Shown in pieces: positions 12,583 to 22,300 of a DNA stretch of 64,000 nt. A program made the position numbers and the translations under genes. The stretch covers positions 553,105-617,104 of the forward strand of contig CT978603.1 in the NCBI GenBank assembly GCA_000063525.1, given 5' to 3'. A model generated the notes under the pieces. That model was not told the DNA's origin. It was given only the letters and a program-made list of their open reading frames with translations, and searched no databases. Origin of the DNA: Synechococcus sp. RCC307. Lineage in GTDB: Bacteria > Cyanobacteriota > Cyanobacteriia > PCC-6307 > Cyanobiaceae. Within the stretch, counting starts at the first letter, position 1, and each line of letters begins with the position of its first letter.

Positions 12583-12918
12583 CTACTGATCAGCGCAGCT
12601 GGCCATTTCAGGGGCCATCATCAAATTCACCAGCTCAGCGCCCTTGGGTCCCATCGGTCCGGAGAGGTTGGAAATTTGGGCTAGAGCAAAGCCGTTGTAG
12701 CGGCTGGTGTAGGCCTTGGCGAGACAGCTGCAGTAAGCCGGTTGATCCAAAACACCGGGAGTTTCGCCGCGCACGCAGCCCCTGTTGAAGCCATCAACAA
12801 ACTGCTCGGTGAGCTCTTGTTCAAGCTGCTCAGGGTCTTGCTCTTGGGCTTGCACAGCCAATGGCCCCGCAGCAGCAAAGCTGGCGGCAGCAGCGGTGAT
12901 GAGCAGATGGCGCAGCAC
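12583..12918 (-). CDS. Secreted small protein of unknown function
   Basis: 111 residues from a GTG at 12918. It begins with a clear Sec signal peptide (basic start, hydrophobic core, cleavage after V-Q-A near residue 24). The mature part is Gln/Glu-rich, then has four cysteines: one in N-R-G-C, two in Y-C-S-C and one near the C-terminus in S-C-A-D-Q. An exported protein stabilised by disulfides is likely. I do not recognise the family. It lies between the helicase and the second adhesin gene on the same strand. Confidence 0.7.
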   Translation of the reverse strand: MLRHLLITAAAASFAAAGPLAVQAQEQDPEQLEQELTEQFVDGFNRGCVRGETPGVLDQPAYCSCLAKAYTSRYNGFALAQISNLSGPMGPKGAELVNLMMAPEMASCADQ

Positions 12919-12990: not shown

Positions 12991-15900
12991 TTAGCCGCCG
13001 TTGGGCATCAGTTTTTTCATCTGTTTCATCATTCGTTCCATCAGCGATTGCTGTTGGCTCAGCTTGGTTTCAAGCTGCTTGATCTTGTCGTCTTGGCGTT
13101 GATTTTCGGCACTGGCTAGCTCTTTTTCAGCTTCCAGCTCTTCAATGCGTTCACGCAGTAGAGCAATCAATTGCTCGTTGGCTTCTGAGGAGCCAGCTGA
13201 TTGCTGTAGCTGCTCGAGTTGCTCGGTGAGCTTGGCTATTTTCTCAACGTAGAGGGTTTCGGAACCAATAGGACTGGTTTTCCAGAGGCCTCGCACTGGA
13301 TCAGCTTGAGGTGCGGGGTCTGCGGCTTGTTCAGGCTGTGGATCGCTCGGCTTGGGCTTGTTGAGCTTGCCGAGCGGGAAGGAGAAGCCAACTCGCCCGC
13401 CGACCGATGGTGTGGACCCAAATTCGTAGTCGACTGAGGGTGTGTAGGCGATGGCGCCGTTGACGTGCAACCTGTCAGCAACGCGGGCAGCGCAACCGCC
13501 AGCGACGGAATACTGCGAACCCCAGCCACCAGCGCCAAAGCCGCAGCGCACCGGTTCATCTTGTGCGAGTGAAACCTCAGGCAGGCTGGAGAGTGCAGCG
13601 CCCATGGCCCCAGCAGCTTCTACGGCATTGCCGAGGCTGCGTGCTGCAGATTCCAGCTTGGGTAGGCGCTTATTGACGGCGTTATCGAGATCACCGAGTG
13701 AGACCGAGGAGCGCTGCAGGGTGCCGTCTTCATTGGCGGCGACGATGGCGGTCCCGGCCCCAGCAAGGTTGGGCATGGTGACTTCGGTGGTGCTGGTGCC
13801 AATCACCGTGTGGTTATCGCGGGTGGTGACGGCTCCCGTGCCGACTGCAGTAGAGCTGGTGTGAGTTGCTCTAGCTCCAGCACCCAGTGCCGTCACATTG
13901 ACGCCACTGCTGTAAGAACTGGCGCCGATGGAGGTGGCACTGGTGCCATCAGCTACCGCGCCAGCACCAATCGCTGTGGCGTTGGTGTTGTAACCCAGAG
14001 CTTTGGAGCCAGGACCGATGGCAATCGCGCCTACGCCGTTAGCAACAGCACCGGCGCCGATGGCGTAGGAGTTCTGGCCATCGGCATCGGCAAAGCCACC
14101 AATGGCAATGGTGTTTTCTGCGCTCGCATTGGCTCCAAAGCCATAGGCCAACGAACCACGGCCTGCGGCGGTGGAGTTCATGCCAGCAGAGATCGAGCCT
14201 TCTCCTGATGCGTTCGCTTGGACGCCTAAAGAAGTAGAGCCACCGCCGGTGGCTTTCGAAAGTGTGCCTAGAGCTGTTGCGGCTGTTAAGTTCGCAGCGC
14301 CTGCTCCACTATTGGCCAAAGCTCCAGCACCCATGGCTGTAGTGCCAGCTCCGGTGGCATCGGCCTCCTGGCCGTAGCAGGTGGCACCAGCTCCGCCGCT
14401 AAGGCAATAGCTGTTAGGGAGATTCTGGGCAGCGAAAGTGGCAGCTCTGAGAACACCTGTCTGATTGGTGACGACCACAGCAACATCTGTGGTTGAGGCG
14501 GTTAATCCCGGGGTTTGATAGCTGGTGGTTCCAGTGCCAATCGTGATGCGGGACTCGAGGGTTGTGGTTGCGCCAGGGCCAATTGCAACCGCATTGGCGT
14601 GGGTAGCTTGCGCCCCAGCCCCAAGGGCTAAGGCGCTCTGCGCTGAGGCTTGGGCGGCTCGACCAAAGGCAGCGGATTTCACCCCACTCGCGGTGGCAAG
14701 AAAACCAACGGCGGTGGAGCCCAGATCGATTGTGCTAAGTGTTGTGGTTGCATTGGCATAGGCACCAATGGCTGTGGTTCCTATGCCTGTGGCATTGGCA
14801 CCAGGGCCGTAGCAAACAGCGTTGACACCATTGCCTTCGCATTTGAGGGCGTTGTAAGCATTGTCGGAGATATTGATGCCTATGCTGTAGTCGGTGGTGT
14901 AGTTGTTGGCTTCGTTAGAGCCACCTTGTTTTGTCACTATCACCTTGTCATCAGCCGCTGAAACGGTTGTTTGCAGACCGCTGACTGTGTAGCTGGTGGT
15001 GAGTCCACTTTCTTGCTCGCTAATAAAAACATTTTCGCCAGCTTGCAGTTCAACGCCCTTGGCGGAGATGGTGACCGCTCCACCGTAATAACCGTCATCG
15101 TTAGCGCCATTTATAGAACTGATTCGAATGTTTTCGCCTGGTTTGATTAATGCTCCCCTCCCAGAGATATCGATCTCAAAGCCAACATCTACGAAGGGCT
15201 TTTGTCTGAGTGTTCCATCGGTGTCAACTGTGACAAGATGGTATTTGTTATCGTTTGCGTAGCCGAGGTTGGCAATGGTGACTTCCGTTGCTGCCTTGCC
15301 GAGCATGAGTTGATCGGCGCGCGTTGTGGCCGCGCCGGTACCCACTGCCGTGGAGTTTTTGCCGCTGGCTACTGAACCAGCTCCGAGGGCTGTTGACCTC
15401 AGGCCTGAAGCACTGGCTTTAGTTCCGATAGCAACGGCATTTTTTTGAGAAGAAACCTCAGCACTTTGACCAATCGCAATGCTGTTAGCAGTGAGTGCGG
15501 AAGCCCCTCGACCAACTGCAATAGCATCTTGCGCTGCCGCATTTGCGCCAACACCTAATGCCAGTGAGTAATTCAAACTCGCTTTAGAACTCTTCCCGAT
15601 CGCATAAGAGTCCTCACCGCTTGACTGCGCATCTACACCTAATGCAATTGAGCGCCAGCCAGAAGACGAAGCACAGCTGCCGATAGCTATTGCATCTCCC
15701 TTGGCGTTGGCTTCATAACCCAATGCCTGGGAGTAATTGCCGTTGGCGGTGGCTCCAATCCCAATCGCAAATGCTCCCGTACCAGTTGATGTGGCTTTAC
15801 CGGAGCTATCACCAGCCATGGGTGGGTTGGCCTTCGCCAATTGAGGCTGGATCACCTCAGCCACCAGCAATCCCATGCTGCCGGGTTGGCCTAGGACGGC

Positions 15901-16029
15901 CCAGCTGGCGAAGAGCGTCTGCGCTGCTCGGCTCCAGCGACGGCTACGGCTACTGCGACGTGTCTGATTCCCGCGGCGAAACCCGGCTGCGCGGAGAACA
16001 GCGCTGATCAGCAGCAGGCGGGAATTCAC
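12991..16029 (-). CDS. YadA-type trimeric autotransporter adhesin with C-terminal coiled-coil extension
   Basis: 1012-residue surface adhesin, GTG start at 16029. The first ~67 residues form an unusually long, Arg-rich export signal ending near A-K-A. Blocks of ~14-residue YadA head repeats (about 80-240, 405-500 and 545-770) alternate with non-repeat segments that may be neck or stalk. A short neck helix precedes a four-strand anchor domain of about 60-70 residues (~820-885) ending G-F-S-F-P-L-G, which would trimerise into the outer-membrane barrel. Unusually the chain continues 130 residues: a Pro-rich linker, then a heptad coiled coil (~923-1010). Two cysteines fall inside the anchor. It is divergent from the AraC gene and next to glycosyltransferase/sulfotransferase genes, suggesting modification of this adhesin. 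Confidence 0.88.
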   Translation of the reverse strand: MNSRLLLISAVLRAAGFRRGNQTRRSSRSRRWSRAAQTLFASWAVLGQPGSMGLLVAEVIQPQLAKANPPMAGDSSGKATSTGTGAFAIGIGATANGNYSQALGYEANAKGDAIAIGSCASSSGWRSIALGVDAQSSGEDSYAIGKSSKASLNYSLALGVGANAAAQDAIAVGRGASALTANSIAIGQSAEVSSQKNAVAIGTKASASGLRSTALGAGSVASGKNSTAVGTGAATTRADQLMLGKAATEVTIANLGYANDNKYHLVTVDTDGTLRQKPFVDVGFEIDISGRGALIKPGENIRISSINGANDDGYYGGAVTISAKGVELQAGENVFISEQESGLTTSYTVSGLQTTVSAADDKVIVTKQGGSNEANNYTTDYSIGINISDNAYNALKCEGNGVNAVCYGPGANATGIGTTAIGAYANATTTLSTIDLGSTAVGFLATASGVKSAAFGRAAQASAQSALALGAGAQATHANAVAIGPGATTTLESRITIGTGTTSYQTPGLTASTTDVAVVVTNQTGVLRAATFAAQNLPNSYCLSGGAGATCYGQEADATGAGTTAMGAGALANSGAGAANLTAATALGTLSKATGGGSTSLGVQANASGEGSISAGMNSTAAGRGSLAYGFGANASAENTIAIGGFADADGQNSYAIGAGAVANGVGAIAIGPGSKALGYNTNATAIGAGAVADGTSATSIGASSYSSGVNVTALGAGARATHTSSTAVGTGAVTTRDNHTVIGTSTTEVTMPNLAGAGTAIVAANEDGTLQRSSVSLGDLDNAVNKRLPKLESAARSLGNAVEAAGAMGAALSSLPEVSLAQDEPVRCGFGAGGWGSQYSVAGGCAARVADRLHVNGAIAYTPSVDYEFGSTPSVGGRVGFSFPLGKLNKPKPSDPQPEQAADPAPQADPVRGLWKTSPIGSETLYVEKIAKLTEQLEQLQQSAGSSEANEQLIALLRERIEELEAEKELASAENQRQDDKIKQLETKLSQQQSLMERMMKQMKKLMPNGG

Positions 16030-16316: not shown

Positions 16317-17267
16317 GTGTCGGTTCGACGCCTAAGCGGACTGGTTGATCATCGTTTTAGCAGCGCTTCTGAGCTGGAAGCGCTGCTGGCTTCGATTGGT
16401 TTTGAAGCACAAGTGCTGCAGCTAGAAGGCGGCGTTCTTCAGGGGCGTTTTCAGTTTCTTGCTGATCAACGGGTCGCGTTGTTGCGTCTGCAAAGCAGTC
16501 TTGGTATTTCAATCGGCTGTGCCCGCAAGGCCGAGATGATTTGTTGCGGCTTTGAGCTTGAGGGCAAGCCTGATGTGGTCTTGGCCCATGGTCAGCCCAT
16601 TGCTCCCCATGCTGTGGCTGGTGTGTCTCTCGCTTTGAGCTACAGCTTTTTCCAGTTCCGCTCAGGAGCTGATGTGGTGATTGCGCTGCTGCCGAAGCAG
16701 GACTTGATTGAGCAGCTCGAAATCTGCGGCGGTCAGCAATGCCTGCGTTGGATGCAATCGCACAATCAGTTGTTGCTTCATCAGCAGGCGCATCAGGCGC
16801 TCGTTGGACTGCTGCGGCACTGGTTGGCTGATCCTGGCGCGATTCCATCTGATCCCACCGCAGCCGTTGTCCGGCTACTGAATGACGACACAGTCCATGG
16901 CGCGGTTCCATTCCGGTGGGTGACGCGATTCCAGCTGGTGTTTGACCTGATTGCGCTGGGTGCCCGCGGCACCATTGACGGGCTGGATTTGGATCAACTG
17001 GCCGATCGCTTGAGCTGCTCACGGCGCAGCCTGATCCAGGGATGCAAAGAGCTGTTGGGAATGGGGCCCAAAGAGGTATTGCGGATTCAGCGGCTTGAGC
17101 AGGTCCATCAGGCTTTGCTGCGCCATGACCCCAAGTCGGCTGTTGCGCCGCAAACGGTGAATGCTGTTGCGGAGCGCTTCGGCTTTCAAAGCCGCGGTCA
17201 TTTTGCGGCGGCCTACAGGCGTCAGTTTGGGGAACTGCCAGCTGCCAGCTTCAGAAAGAGGGCCTAA
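16317..17267 (+). CDS. AraC-family transcriptional regulator
   Basis: DNA-binding regulator of 316 residues from a GTG at 16317. The N-terminal ~200 residues are a non-conserved ligand or effector region. The C-terminus (about 220-315) carries the double helix-turn-helix of AraC/XylS proteins: L-D-Q-L-A-D-R-L-S-C-S-R-R-S-L for the first, and A-V-A-E-R-F-G-F-Q-S-R-G-H-F then Y-R-R-Q-F-G for the second. It is divergent from the adhesin and 73 bases upstream of the sulfotransferase-GT41 gene, so both are plausible targets. Confidence 0.9.
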   Translation: MSVRRLSGLVDHRFSSASELEALLASIGFEAQVLQLEGGVLQGRFQFLADQRVALLRLQSSLGISIGCARKAEMICCGFELEGKPDVVLAHGQPIAPHAVAGVSLALSYSFFQFRSGADVVIALLPKQDLIEQLEICGGQQCLRWMQSHNQLLLHQQAHQALVGLLRHWLADPGAIPSDPTAAVVRLLNDDTVHGAVPFRWVTRFQLVFDLIALGARGTIDGLDLDQLADRLSCSRRSLIQGCKELLGMGPKEVLRIQRLEQVHQALLRHDPKSAVAPQTVNAVAERFGFQSRGHFAAAYRRQFGELPAASFRKRA

Positions 17268-17340: not shown

Positions 17341-20300
17341 ATGGCTGCATCCATCAGCGCGTCAACCTTGGTTGCTGTCAACGCGCGCTTGTGCATCGCG
17401 CCGTTGCCCAAGGTGGCTTCCACCCTGCTGAAGCGGGTGGCGGTGTTGGCCGATGGCCGTGAGCCGCTCAGCACAACTTCCCTTGGTGAAACCAGACCAG
17501 CGCTGGCGATTCACCGCGCCGAAGTTCACGGGCTGCCATGCCTGGCTGAACTCAGCCAAGAGCAGCAGGAGCATTGGCTCGGCGATGCCCATGCCCTGCG
17601 GCTGGTGGTCACGCGCCACCCGGCTGAACGTTTGCTGTCCTTTTGGCACGACAAGTTGCATCTCGCTGAGCCGGCTTACGCGCCGCTCAATGCTTCAGTT
17701 CAAGCGGCGCGTCAGCGCAGCGGGGCTGATCCTTGCCGTTTTGCTGATTTCCTCAGCTTTTTAGAAGAGCACTGGGAACTGCTCAAAAGCGATGGCCACC
17801 TGAGGCCCCAATGCGATTTGCTGGGTGATGCCCCTGGCTTTCAGCGACTCGACCGCGACGGGTTGGTCAAACAGCTGCCGCGGTTGCTCCAGCCTTTGGT
17901 GCCCGCGGCCACCTTGGGCCGAATCAAAGACGAGCTGGCTACTTATGACAAGCAGTACCGCCAGCGCTTAGGCAAGCGCTGGGAAGACGCCTACAGCAAA
18001 GACGGCTTGCAGTTGGTGGAAAGCCTCTATGGCGATGACCTCAAGCGCTACGGCTACTCCATGCCACGGCGGCGCAGTGACAAGGTGCGGCCCTTAGCGG
18101 CTGTTGACACCGACGCTCTGGTGGATCCGCTGCAGCAGCTGCGCGAGCGCCATCAGCAAATCGCTGGGCTGCAGCAACAGCTCGCCGAAGCCCAGCAGGC
18201 CTTGGCCAAGCCGCCGCTGCCGTCGATTGATCCGCCGCAAGGGCAGTGGCCTGATCACAACAGCCCAGAAGCGGGCCTGAGTCATCTCTATGACGCGCTC
18301 AATGAGCAGCGCTTTCAAGAGGTGATTGAGCAGGCCGCCAGCTTGCAGGGTCATCCCCATGCCGGCGAGATCGCCTATATCCAGGGCTTGGCCCATGGCG
18401 CCCTTGGTGAGCACCAAGCCGCCATTGATGCCTACGTGGCCGCACAGGCTGCTGGGTTTTTAACGCCCTATGTGCTCTTTAACGCGGGCAATTCCTGCCG
18501 CGGGCTTGGCAATACCGCTGAAGGATTGCGCCTGTATCAAGAAGCCATTGATCTGTTCCCAGCCTTTGCAGAAGCACGCCACAACCTGGCGATGGCGCTG
18601 CTGGAGAACCAGGACACCGCGGAAGCCGAGCGGCAGCTGCGGCTGTTATTGCGGGATCAGCCCAGCTACTACCAGGCTTCCTTTTGCTTGGCGAACCTGC
18701 TGCGCGATCTCAAGCGCGACCCAGAAGCGGTGGAAGCCTTCCGCCTCTGCCTGCATTACGCCCCGAACTACCCCGATGCTTGGAACAACCTCGGGCTGAC
18801 CTATGGCAACCTCAAGCAGATGGATGAGGCGATCGCCTCTTATCGCCACGCCCTCAGCATCAACGCCGACTTCAAGCCCTCACGCCAAAACCTGGCGCAG
18901 GCCCTGGTGCAGCTCAAGCACCATGACGAGGCTTATCAGGAGTTCGGCCTCTTCCGCCGGCTTGATCTTTCGCCCACGGAGCAGGTGGTGGGTTTGCAGG
19001 GGCAGATCAACTGCCTGATGGAGCTGGACCGTTACGAGGAAGGCCTTGCGCTAGCCGATGCGGAGCCCGATCGGCGCCTTCAGCTGATGGCGCGGCTGCA
19101 TGTGCTGCCGGTTCTCTATGACAGCAGTGAGCAGGTGAGTGCTACGCGCCAGCGCTGGCATGACGATGCCACTGAGCTGTATGGCTTGCTGGATGGCATC
19201 AGCCAAGATGATCCCCATTGGGAGCATCTCTATGGCCATGCCTGGTCGCTCACCAACTTCTATTTGGCTTATCAAATGGAAGACGATCGGCCGTTGCAGG
19301 AGCTTTATGCCGGCATCCTCGATCGCATCCTGCGGCCCAAGCTGGGCGCTTTCATGCAGCCGCTGCCCCAGCGGCATCCTGGTGACACCAGCCCCCTGCG
19401 CGTTGGCGTGATCTCACCGCATCTGGTCAATCACAACGGTTCGATCTGGGCTTTGGGTTGGCTGGAAGGCATCGCCAACAACTCTGGCTACGAGATCTTC
19501 AGCTACAACGTCGCCGATAACGAAGACTCCGGCACCCAGCGTTTTGCGGCCCTCGGCACCTACCGGCATTTGCCGCTTTGCGCTGAGGCTCCTGAGGCCA
19601 TGCTGCAGCAGATCCTCGATGACCGGCTTGATCTGCTGATCTACACCGATATCGGCATGCATCCGGCCAGCAAGATCACCTCGGTGCTGCAACTGGCGCC
19701 GGTGCAGGGTCAGGGCTGGGGCCATCCGATCACGAGCGGATCACGCACGATTCACTACTACCTCTCCGGTGAAGGCATGGAGCCTTCCGGCAATGAGGAG
19801 CACTACAGCGAAACGCTGTGGCGCTTGCCGCGCACCGGCTTGAACTACGACACCCCTGCGGCCATCCACGACGGCGAGCTGCTGTTTGACAAGTTCGATC
19901 TGCCGCGCGACCGGCCGATCCTCAATTCACTGCAGAGCACCTTCAAATACGTGCCGCGCAATGATTGGTCGTTCGCTGAGATTGCCAAGCGCAACCCGGA
20001 AGCCTTCATCGTTTTGGTGGGGCACATGGGCCATGGCGGCCTGTGCGAGCGGCTGGTTGAGCGCATGCGCCCCCACTTTGAGGAGCGTGGCTTGGAGCTG
20101 GAGAACCATCTGCGCGTGCTGCCGCGGCTCGACTACGGCGACTTCATGGGGCTGTTCTCCATCAGCCATCACACCATCGACACCATCGATTGGAATGGCG
20201 GCAATAGTTCGATGCAGTCTTTCTCGCTGGATTGCCCCGTGGTTACCTTGCCCACGGCATTCATGCGCGGCCGCCACACCGTGGCGATGCTTGAGGTGTT

Positions 20301-20535
20301 GGAGTTGCCGGAGCTGATCGCCCAAGACGGCAACGACTACGTGGCAATCTCCAGCCGTTTGCTCAGTGATGAGGCTTTCTATCAGGAGATGCGCGCCAAG
20401 ATCGCTGAGCGCAAAGAGCGGCTCTTCCACGACAAGTCAGTCGCTGAAGCGTTCCAGTTGGCGGTGGAAACCATCTGCCGGCAAGTCCCTGCGGTGGGTC
20501 AGCAACCGGCTGAGATTTTGCCGCTGGCGGCGTAG
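17341..20535 (+). CDS. Sulfotransferase-TPR-GT41 (SPINDLY/OGT/NGT-like) fusion protein
   Basis: 1064 residues combining two transfer activities. Residues 1-~240 resemble a Sulfotransfer_2 domain: PAPS 5'-phosphosulfate motif P-L-P-K-V-A-S-T-L-L-K-R near 21-33 and 3'-phosphate motif T-R-H-P-A-E-R-L-L-S-F-W near 90-101. After a Gln-rich coil (~255-290) come about six to eight TPR units (~300-570, with A-W-N-N-L-G-L-T-Y-G-N). From ~685 to 1050 lies a GT41 catalytic domain: R-V-G-V-I-S-P-H-L-V-N-H-N at the start and T-I-D-W-N-G-G-N-S-S near 947-956, matching the UDP-sugar-site pattern of OGT. GT41 enzymes add a sugar to Ser/Thr or Asn of proteins in the cytoplasm. It heads a cluster with the next two genes; the adhesin next door is the natural substrate candidate. 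No signal peptide or membrane segment is visible. Confidence 0.85.
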   Translation: MAASISASTLVAVNARLCIAPLPKVASTLLKRVAVLADGREPLSTTSLGETRPALAIHRAEVHGLPCLAELSQEQQEHWLGDAHALRLVVTRHPAERLLSFWHDKLHLAEPAYAPLNASVQAARQRSGADPCRFADFLSFLEEHWELLKSDGHLRPQCDLLGDAPGFQRLDRDGLVKQLPRLLQPLVPAATLGRIKDELATYDKQYRQRLGKRWEDAYSKDGLQLVESLYGDDLKRYGYSMPRRRSDKVRPLAAVDTDALVDPLQQLRERHQQIAGLQQQLAEAQQALAKPPLPSIDPPQGQWPDHNSPEAGLSHLYDALNEQRFQEVIEQAASLQGHPHAGEIAYIQGLAHGALGEHQAAIDAYVAAQAAGFLTPYVLFNAGNSCRGLGNTAEGLRLYQEAIDLFPAFAEARHNLAMALLENQDTAEAERQLRLLLRDQPSYYQASFCLANLLRDLKRDPEAVEAFRLCLHYAPNYPDAWNNLGLTYGNLKQMDEAIASYRHALSINADFKPSRQNLAQALVQLKHHDEAYQEFGLFRRLDLSPTEQVVGLQGQINCLMELDRYEEGLALADAEPDRRLQLMARLHVLPVLYDSSEQVSATRQRWHDDATELYGLLDGISQDDPHWEHLYGHAWSLTNFYLAYQMEDDRPLQELYAGILDRILRPKLGAFMQPLPQRHPGDTSPLRVGVISPHLVNHNGSIWALGWLEGIANNSGYEIFSYNVADNEDSGTQRFAALGTYRHLPLCAEAPEAMLQQILDDRLDLLIYTDIGMHPASKITSVLQLAPVQGQGWGHPITSGSRTIHYYLSGEGMEPSGNEEHYSETLWRLPRTGLNYDTPAAIHDGELLFDKFDLPRDRPILNSLQSTFKYVPRNDWSFAEIAKRNPEAFIVLVGHMGHGGLCERLVERMRPHFEERGLELENHLRVLPRLDYGDFMGLFSISHHTIDTIDWNGGNSSMQSFSLDCPVVTLPTAFMRGRHTVAMLEVLELPELIAQDGNDYVAISSRLLSDEAFYQEMRAKIAERKERLFHDKSVAEAFQLAVETICRQVPAVGQQPAEILPLAA

Positions 20536-20537
20536 TG

Positions 20538-21401
20538 ATGCAGCTGCAAGCTCACGACCTCTTGCCCGGTTGCCGGGTTGATGACCCCGCTTGCGACTGG
20601 GCCCAGATTCAGCTGCAGATGCGCGAGGGCGTTCAGCTCTCTCCTTTGTTGCCCCTTGGCGGTGATGCCGGCCTGGTGTGGGTTCCCAAAAACGGTTGCA
20701 GCACCCTGAAGCGGGTATGGCTGCAACTCCAAGGCGCCGATTGTCAGCGGCCTGGGTTTGATCCCCACAGCGCTGCACTGCCCTTCACCCATTGGTTGAA
20801 TCCAGACGAACTGCGCGCCGTTTCGCACTATCGCTTCCTCGTGGCGATTTGGCGCGATCCAATCGATCGCTTTGTTTCGGCTTGCCGTAGTCATTTGGTT
20901 GAGCTCACCACCGCTGCGATTTACGCCAAGTTGCGTTCATCCAGCCCTGATCAGAGTGGTTTCGAGAATGCCTTGCGCTTTCACGATGAATTGTTTGCAG
21001 GCCACGGCGTTCACTCTTTTGCCGATGACGCTGATCCGGTTGATGTGATGAACCAGACCGCCCTGCAACTTCCGGCTTGGATTGCCTGTCATATCGATTG
21101 GAGCCATCACACCATTCCCCAGGTCAGCTTTCTCGGTGGTGACCCGCGTTGCTATCGCACGATTTTGGGCATGGAGCAGATCGATGCATTGATGGCCCAT
21201 TGGTCCAAGGCATCGGGCTTGCCGCTCGATCTCACCCCGCAGCATGTCTCCAGAGAGCAGGCTTCCAACAATCCTTGGCGGCGTTTGCGGCGCGATCAAC
21301 TCAGCAGCGAAGCGCTTGCAGCCTTGGAGCGGTTTTATGCAGCGGACTGGGCCTTTTTGGAGTTGGCGCAGCAGCAGTTAGGGGCTTGGCAAGCGGCATG
21401 A
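20538..21401 (+). CDS. Sulfotransferase family protein
   Basis: Predicted PAPS-dependent sulfotransferase, 287 residues. The phosphosulfate loop is W-V-P-K-N-G-C-S-T-L-K-R (about 48-60) and the 3'-phosphate motif is I-W-R-D-P-I-D-R-F-V-S-A-C (about 103-115), both at the spacing of the Sulfotransfer_2 family used for carbohydrate sulfation. The ATG at 20538 lies two bases after the preceding stop; a GTG at 20535 is the alternative. Its stop overlaps the start of the DUF707 gene (ATGA). Operon position and the related domain in the upstream fusion suggest both act on one glycan. Confidence 0.85.
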   Translation: MQLQAHDLLPGCRVDDPACDWAQIQLQMREGVQLSPLLPLGGDAGLVWVPKNGCSTLKRVWLQLQGADCQRPGFDPHSAALPFTHWLNPDELRAVSHYRFLVAIWRDPIDRFVSACRSHLVELTTAAIYAKLRSSSPDQSGFENALRFHDELFAGHGVHSFADDADPVDVMNQTALQLPAWIACHIDWSHHTIPQVSFLGGDPRCYRTILGMEQIDALMAHWSKASGLPLDLTPQHVSREQASNNPWRRLRRDQLSSEALAALERFYAADWAFLELAQQQLGAWQAA

Positions 21402-22300
21402 CAGACGCTTTCCCCTCATTAATGCGGGGACGTTCCGAGCCAGAGCGGCAGCAGTGGGCCCGCTGGGTTTTGGGGAGCCACAGCGATCTGTTCCTTCCGG
21501 AGATGGCTGCCGCTGTGGACCAGCTCAACCGGCATGACCCCATTGAGCAGGGCCAGCCTGTGGTGAATCCAGGGGCAACACCAAATGATCTGGTGGTGAT
21601 TGCCACCCAGCGCGGCCGCCATTGCGTGGTGTTTGATCAGCCCCTTGCGTGCCCAGTCGTTTTGTTTGATTGGACCGGGGATGGCCTTGAGCCCGGCAGT
21701 AATCCCCACGGCTTTGATGTGATCAGCGTGGCGACCGAGTGCAAAGGCCATCTGATGGAAGAGTCCTGGAAGCGTCTTCCGCCGCCAGCAGGGGGCCACT
21801 ACATGGGTTTTATCGATGACGATGTTTTGATCAGTGCCAGCGCGATCAATCGGCTACTGGCCGTGGCACGGATCCACAACCTCAGTGCAGCGCAGCCTGC
21901 GGTCAGTTTTGGCAGCAGTCTCTGTCAGGAATATGGCTGGTTACGGCAACGGGCCTGCACGACGCTGCACCGGGTGCCGATTGTGGAAATCATGGCTCCA
22001 TTCATTCGCCGTGATCTGCTCGAACTGGCGATGCCTTTTTTAAAAGGAGTGCGCAGCGGCTACGGCCTCGATCGGTTTGCCCTGCCGCTCTGCGCTGTCC
22101 ATCTCAATGCCTGGCGCTTTGGCGCTGTTGATCTCACGCCACTGACCCATGTGCGGGTGTTTGGTTCGCTTGAGAAACGCTTCTCCAATGGTTTGCTCAG
22201 CAAGGAAGAGGAACATCTGATTCGGCAACGCCTCATGCAATCCATGGGCTTTGCCGTGGATCAAGCCCTGCATCAACAACTTGAGGCGGCTGTTGCTTGA
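21398..22300 (+). CDS. DUF707 family protein, putative glycosyltransferase
   Basis: 300 residues from the ATG at 21398, which overlaps the sulfotransferase stop. The frame is open further upstream but only in the shadow of that gene. The core Y-M-G-F-I-D-D-D-V-L gives a nucleotide-sugar-like acidic D-D-D motif. The following A-A-Q-P-A-V-S-F, I-V-E-I-M-A-P-F and S-G-Y-G-L-D-R segments match the pattern I know for DUF707, found mainly in plants and some bacteria and thought to be GT-A-like. No transmembrane segment. Function is unproven; context suggests glycan building on an adhesin or surface polymer. Confidence 0.7.
   Translation: MTDAFPSLMRGRSEPERQQWARWVLGSHSDLFLPEMAAAVDQLNRHDPIEQGQPVVNPGATPNDLVVIATQRGRHCVVFDQPLACPVVLFDWTGDGLEPGSNPHGFDVISVATECKGHLMEESWKRLPPPAGGHYMGFIDDDVLISASAINRLLAVARIHNLSAAQPAVSFGSSLCQEYGWLRQRACTTLHRVPIVEIMAPFIRRDLLELAMPFLKGVRSGYGLDRFALPLCAVHLNAWRFGAVDLTPLTHVRVFGSLEKRFSNGLLSKEEEHLIRQRLMQSMGFAVDQALHQQLEAAVA

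Follow-up and report, generated by a model that had tools for sequence, protein, structure and literature searches.

A single polypeptide of the marine cyanobacterium Synechococcus sp. RCC307 (genome of 2.22 Mbp, 60.8% GC; PMC2441476) joins an N-terminal sulfotransferase domain to a TPR array and a C-terminal GT41 glycosyltransferase domain, and cofactor motifs are intact in both domains. Its gene lies in the 64,000-nucleotide stretch of DNA analyzed here (the window), where it heads an operon-like run of genes and is linked to the gene of a YadA-like trimeric autotransporter adhesin (TAA). We lean towards the view that the protein is a cytoplasmic tailoring enzyme with two activities that serves the neighboring adhesin, with two further operon products, named ST2 and GTx, acting on the same glycan. 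The substrate, the order of the reactions, the sugar, the acceptor residue and the sulfation target are what we infer, and we offer this function as a well-supported hypothesis: a sulfotransferase-bearing variant of cytoplasmic adhesin glycosylation by GT41 enzymes.

Domain architecture and active-site residues

The fusion gene forms one uninterrupted frame on the forward strand, from an ATG at 17341 to a stop at 20533–20535, and encodes 1064 residues. A Pfam search matched Sulfotransfer_2, TPR and Glyco_transf_41 profiles in that order along the chain, which confirms the single-polypeptide architecture proposed in a sequence-only reading of this DNA. The gene and its parts are listed below in window coordinates.

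17341..20535, + strand: fusion gene, sulfotransferase–linker–TPR–GT41; single open frame, with full-length orthologues in 10 other genomes
17383..18060, + strand: Sulfotransfer_2 domain, residues 15–240; PF03567, E 2.9e-16, profile positions 9–252 of 252
17407..17436, + strand: 5'-PSB PAPS motif PKVASTLLKR, residues 23–32; P-K-x-x-S-T-L-L-K-R in 11/11 fusion orthologues
17611..17646, + strand: 3'-PB PAPS motif TRHPAERLLSFW, residues 91–102; T-R-H-P-(A/G)-E-R-L-L-S-F-W in 11/11
18070..18330, + strand: linker, residues 244–330, from the alignment; contains a Gln-rich, coiled-coil-like stretch, the coiled coil judged by eye only
18466..18945, + strand: TPR array, residues ~376–535; Pfam TPR families, aligns with the TPRs of human OGT
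19390..20430, + strand: GT41 catalytic domain, residues ~684–1030; PF13844, PDB matches to TtOGT, hOGT, SPY and XcOGT, and motif tables

The sulfotransferase profile is matched over the whole domain and scores 60.8 bits against a curated cut-off of 22, with an E-value of 2.9e-16 when the N-terminal 280 residues are searched and 1.1e-14 with the full chain. Both PAPS motifs are near-invariant, since PKxxSTLLKR and TRHPxERLLSFWHDKLHL are kept across the 11 fusion orthologues, and PAPS-dependent sulfate transfer by the N-terminal half is predicted from these intact cofactor motifs. The sequence-only reading had placed a PAPS motif in the first 33 residues and a GT41 motif near residue 950; both are where it put them, the latter being DWNGGNSS at residues 950–957, and its sulfotransferase assignment is borne out by the profile score and the motifs in all 11 proteins. 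A PDB sequence search with the sulfotransferase half returned no match, and the sulfotransferase fold is predicted from the profile match because an AlphaFold model of this half, built from two sequences, reached a pLDDT of 42 and was too poor for a fold search. The domain shares with PF03567 members of the chondroitin 4-sulfotransferase and HNK-1 sulfotransferase type the whole-profile match and both PAPS motifs, but differs from them in being fused N-terminally to TPR-GT41. Known Sulfotransfer_2 members are mostly stand-alone proteins. When 386 genomes of the phylum were searched with a profile of the fused domain, strong matches were found only in frames of about 1070 residues or more, and in Cyanobiaceae only, while all other matches were weak. 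By these sequence criteria, the sulfotransferase domain of the fusion forms a type of its own.

The TPR families, with a best E-value of 2e-19, are followed by a two-part Glyco_transf_41 match (E 9e-17); neither profile covers a segment of about 140 residues that separates the TPR array from the GT41 domain. The best PDB matches of the GT41 half are the Thermobaculum terrenum OGT (5djs), human OGT, Arabidopsis SPY (SPINDLY) and Xanthomonas XcOGT. The HMW1C-type N-glycosyltransferases (NGTs) match much more weakly than these OGT-type structures, and the NGT equivalog model gives 30.4 bits, far below its cut-off of 1000. On profile, TPR and structure matches, the GT41 half is classed as OGT-type. 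DWNGGNSS is conserved in this half, and His698 and Lys869, the equivalents of human OGT His498 and Lys842, are invariant in the fusion proteins. As in OGT- and SPINDLY-type enzymes, a TPR array is followed by GT41 with these two residues; the fusion differs from them by its added sulfotransferase, by the uncovered stretch between TPR and GT41, and by a glutamine, Gln959 in all members, at the position aligned with human OGT Asp925. This site also carries residues other than Asp in other cyanobacterial GT41 relatives. Because of the substitution, the donor sugar cannot be assumed to be UDP-GlcNAc, and the GT41 half may use a different donor.

Conservation and origin of the fusion

Among 400 genomes of the same bacterial family (Cyanobiaceae), the full-length fusion was found in 10 other genomes, each a different species, with 63–75% identity to the window protein. 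Counting the window genome, the 11 full-length proteins span six genera and are conserved along the whole chain, with GT41 among the most conserved parts (84–94% identity in six pairs tested). In four near pairs, dN/dS was 0.06–0.21 for the sulfotransferase domain and 0.05–0.20 for GT41, which demonstrates purifying selection on both domains in these pairs; two more distant pairs are near synonymous-site saturation, which makes their ratios less informative. A chance or mis-joined open reading frame, or an assembly join, is ruled out, because the same full-length architecture recurs in ten other species, with purifying selection on the domains in the near pairs.

We also considered a phage origin of the fusion. 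No relative was found in phage records by tblastn, nor in viral contigs, where short patterns of limited sensitivity were used. A scan of contigs beyond Cyanobiaceae gave TPR or GT41 similarity only and no full-length relative, and a literature search found no papers on a sulfotransferase-TPR-GT41 architecture.

Two relatives within the family that lack the sulfotransferase bear on how the fusion arose. The protein in genome G033 (locus L077) has 762 residues and starts at the equivalent of residue ~293 of the window protein, and the one in G270 (L076) has extra TPRs where the fusion has its sulfotransferase. The DNA beside both contains no remnant of a sulfotransferase domain. We suggest from these comparisons that a sulfotransferase was joined, at the linker, to a pre-existing TPR-GT41 protein, with loss of the domain as the alternative. 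At L076 (9531–19901), three large TPR proteins follow one another; the first two are GT41 relatives, and the first is 68% identical to residues 465–1048 of the window protein.

The linked adhesin and the rest of the cassette

The genes around the fusion in the window are as follows.

12583..12918, − strand: small protein, 111 residues, with a signal-peptide-like N-terminus; directly after the TAA gene, no Pfam family
12991..16029, − strand: YadA-like TAA, 1012 residues, proposed substrate; YadA_head E 1e-44, YadA_anchor E 6.5e-11
16317..17267, + strand: AraC-type regulator; PF12833, E 4e-17, 73 bp before the fusion gene
20535..21401, + strand: second Sulfotransfer_2 protein (ST2), 288 residues; PF03567, E 4e-7, motifs WVPKNGCSTLKR and WRDPIDRFVSA
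21398..22300, + strand: GTx, 300 residues, FIDDDV motif; ATGA overlap with the ST2 stop, in 10/11 cassettes at 61–78% identity

The window TAA has head repeats, a membrane anchor and an extended N-terminus, and its gene lies divergently upstream of the fusion gene, an arrangement seen in 10 of the 11 fusion genomes (in G238 the contig ends within the TAA gene). The gap between the two frames is 66–430 bp in eight genomes and 2.1 kb in G034; in the window genome it is about 1.3 kb and holds the AraC gene, which was not found in the other ten cassettes and possibly controls the cassette in the window genome. In the eleventh fusion genome, G196, the small companion gene keeps its place upstream of the fusion but the TAA gene itself lies about 10 kb downstream. 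The DNA that separates this TAA gene from the fusion encodes a classical autotransporter beta-domain protein of 1129 residues (L072, 13190–16579, + strand).

The association extends to gene content. YadA anchors are present in 50 of the 400 genomes, namely in every one of the 11 that carry the fusion and in 39 of the 389 that lack it (Fisher one-sided P = 4e-11, a value that ignores shared ancestry). The sulfotransferase-less relative in G033 also adjoins a YadA-like gene, and the one in G270 has no TAA beside it. Furthermore, TAAs occur in genomes that lack the fusion, with no GT41 relative nearby in the loci read, so that the modification genes look like an accessory of the TAA and not the reverse. 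The wider flanks of the cassette vary, with a GH116 enzyme and a UDP-galactopyranose mutase in some genomes, an isoamylase in others and a methyltransferase in others; the window has genes recognized by eye as encoding an AAA ATPase and a YidC-like protein. These differing chromosomal settings indicate that the cassette is a conserved unit and that its linkage to the TAA does not simply reflect inherited gene order.

Downstream, the start codon of ST2 overlaps the fusion stop at the junction TAGTGATG. ST2 is present in 7 of the 11 cassettes. GTx contains an invariant DDD motif, and its sole Pfam signal is a sub-threshold match to DUF707; as a guess from sequence, it could be a GT-A glycosyltransferase.

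Adhesins beside the fusion are often very large, up to about 4800 residues; those of roughly 4600–4800 residues at L091 (2549–16960, G276) and near 917944 on contig C1 of G294 are unusually large for TAAs. The composition of fusion-linked adhesins shows no clear enrichment of Ser, Thr or N-x-S/T over that of TAAs lacking a fusion, and no clear sign of extra acceptor sites, whether Ser/Thr or Asn sequons. Small cysteine-containing proteins of about 110 residues, with an N-terminus resembling a signal peptide, follow TAAs in many genomes with or without the fusion (L071, L072, L075, L078, L083–L085 and L089–L091), and a role as TAA assembly partner is possible for them.

Proposed function and alternatives

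In the mechanism that we propose, the TPRs would engage the adhesin chain while it is still unfolded, ahead of export by Sec, and the C-terminal OGT-type GT41 domain would add a sugar to its side chains, with Ser/Thr a more likely acceptor than Asn. The N-terminal PAPS-dependent sulfotransferase would then sulfate the adhesin glycan, ST2 and GTx would extend or further modify it, and the product would be a sulfated glycoprotein fiber on the cell surface. The TAA is proposed as the substrate because of its tight genomic linkage and because of a precedent. Two TAAs, Knh of Kingella kingae and EmaA of Aggregatibacter aphrophilus, are substrates of HMW1C-like GT41 enzymes, and adhesion is impaired when this glycosylation is lost (PMC9592894, PMC8498110). 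The sequence-only reading had suggested an enzyme that adds first a sugar and then a sulfate, or one that steers sulfation towards a protein held by its TPRs; our data are compatible with that suggestion, which we favor, and the enzyme may well be bifunctional.

Other explanations of the same locus were weighed. The enzyme might act in the synthesis of a sulfated surface polysaccharide or lipopolysaccharide and neighbor the TAA through a shared, variable cell-surface island. Genome islands of marine Synechococcus are indeed rich in glycosyltransferases, possibly for avoidance of grazers and phages, and giant ORFs often share the atypical composition of these islands (PMC2441476); sulfated exopolysaccharides are made by cyanobacteria (PMC8205485), and two genomes have genes for UDP-galactopyranose mutase and the GH116 enzyme close to the cassette. 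Against this, the TAA remains the divergent neighbor in 10 of 11 cassettes despite different wider flanks, no recurring polysaccharide export or polymerase genes were seen in the cassettes, and characterized TPR-GT41 enzymes have protein substrates; we regard such a role as unlikely. Somewhat less probable still is that the adhesin is modified but the two halves have different acceptors, with the sulfotransferase using Tyr or Ser/Thr of the protein, or a different chain, as its acceptor while the TPRs serve for delivery only. Such an arrangement would agree with the position of the TPR scaffold between the two domains and with the presence in the operon of ST2, which would be available for the glycan, but a sulfotransferase joined to a glycosyltransferase points to one common glycan, and Sulfotransfer_2 (PF03567) comprises chiefly carbohydrate sulfotransferases.

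A further reading, in which a catalytically weak or inactive GT41 half provides docking and TPR-guided sulfation is the main activity of the protein, could draw on the replacement of Asp925 by Gln959. We consider it very improbable, given that GT41 is among the most conserved domains with low dN/dS, that the His498 and Lys842 equivalents are invariant, and that the Asp925 site tolerates other residues in cyanobacterial relatives.

We give a little less than an even chance to the reading that one polypeptide carries out both glycosylation and sulfation of its cognate TAA in the cytoplasm and that marine picocyanobacteria consequently display sulfated glycoprotein fibers; no bacterial adhesin known to us is made in this manner. 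If true, it would add sulfation to cytoplasmic adhesin-glycosylation systems and provide a testable function for the islands of marine Synechococcus and for its giant surface proteins, to which a part in avoiding grazers and phages is ascribed (PMC2441476). A natural sulfotransferase-glycosyltransferase fusion could also serve as a compact tool for producing sulfated glycoproteins.

Among known systems, the HMW1C-like NGTs share with the fusion protein a GT41 domain, a cytoplasmic location and a cognate TAA substrate (the latter inferred here from linkage), but they transfer hexoses onto Asn, lack a sulfotransferase and resemble the fusion only weakly (30 bits against 1000). The same principle of an N-terminal tailoring domain fused to TPR-GT41 is found within the family in a protein that carries an FkbM methyltransferase instead of a sulfotransferase. 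This FkbM methyltransferase-TPR-GT41 protein is likewise one chain, of 1301 residues (L093, 3717–7622, − strand, in G194).
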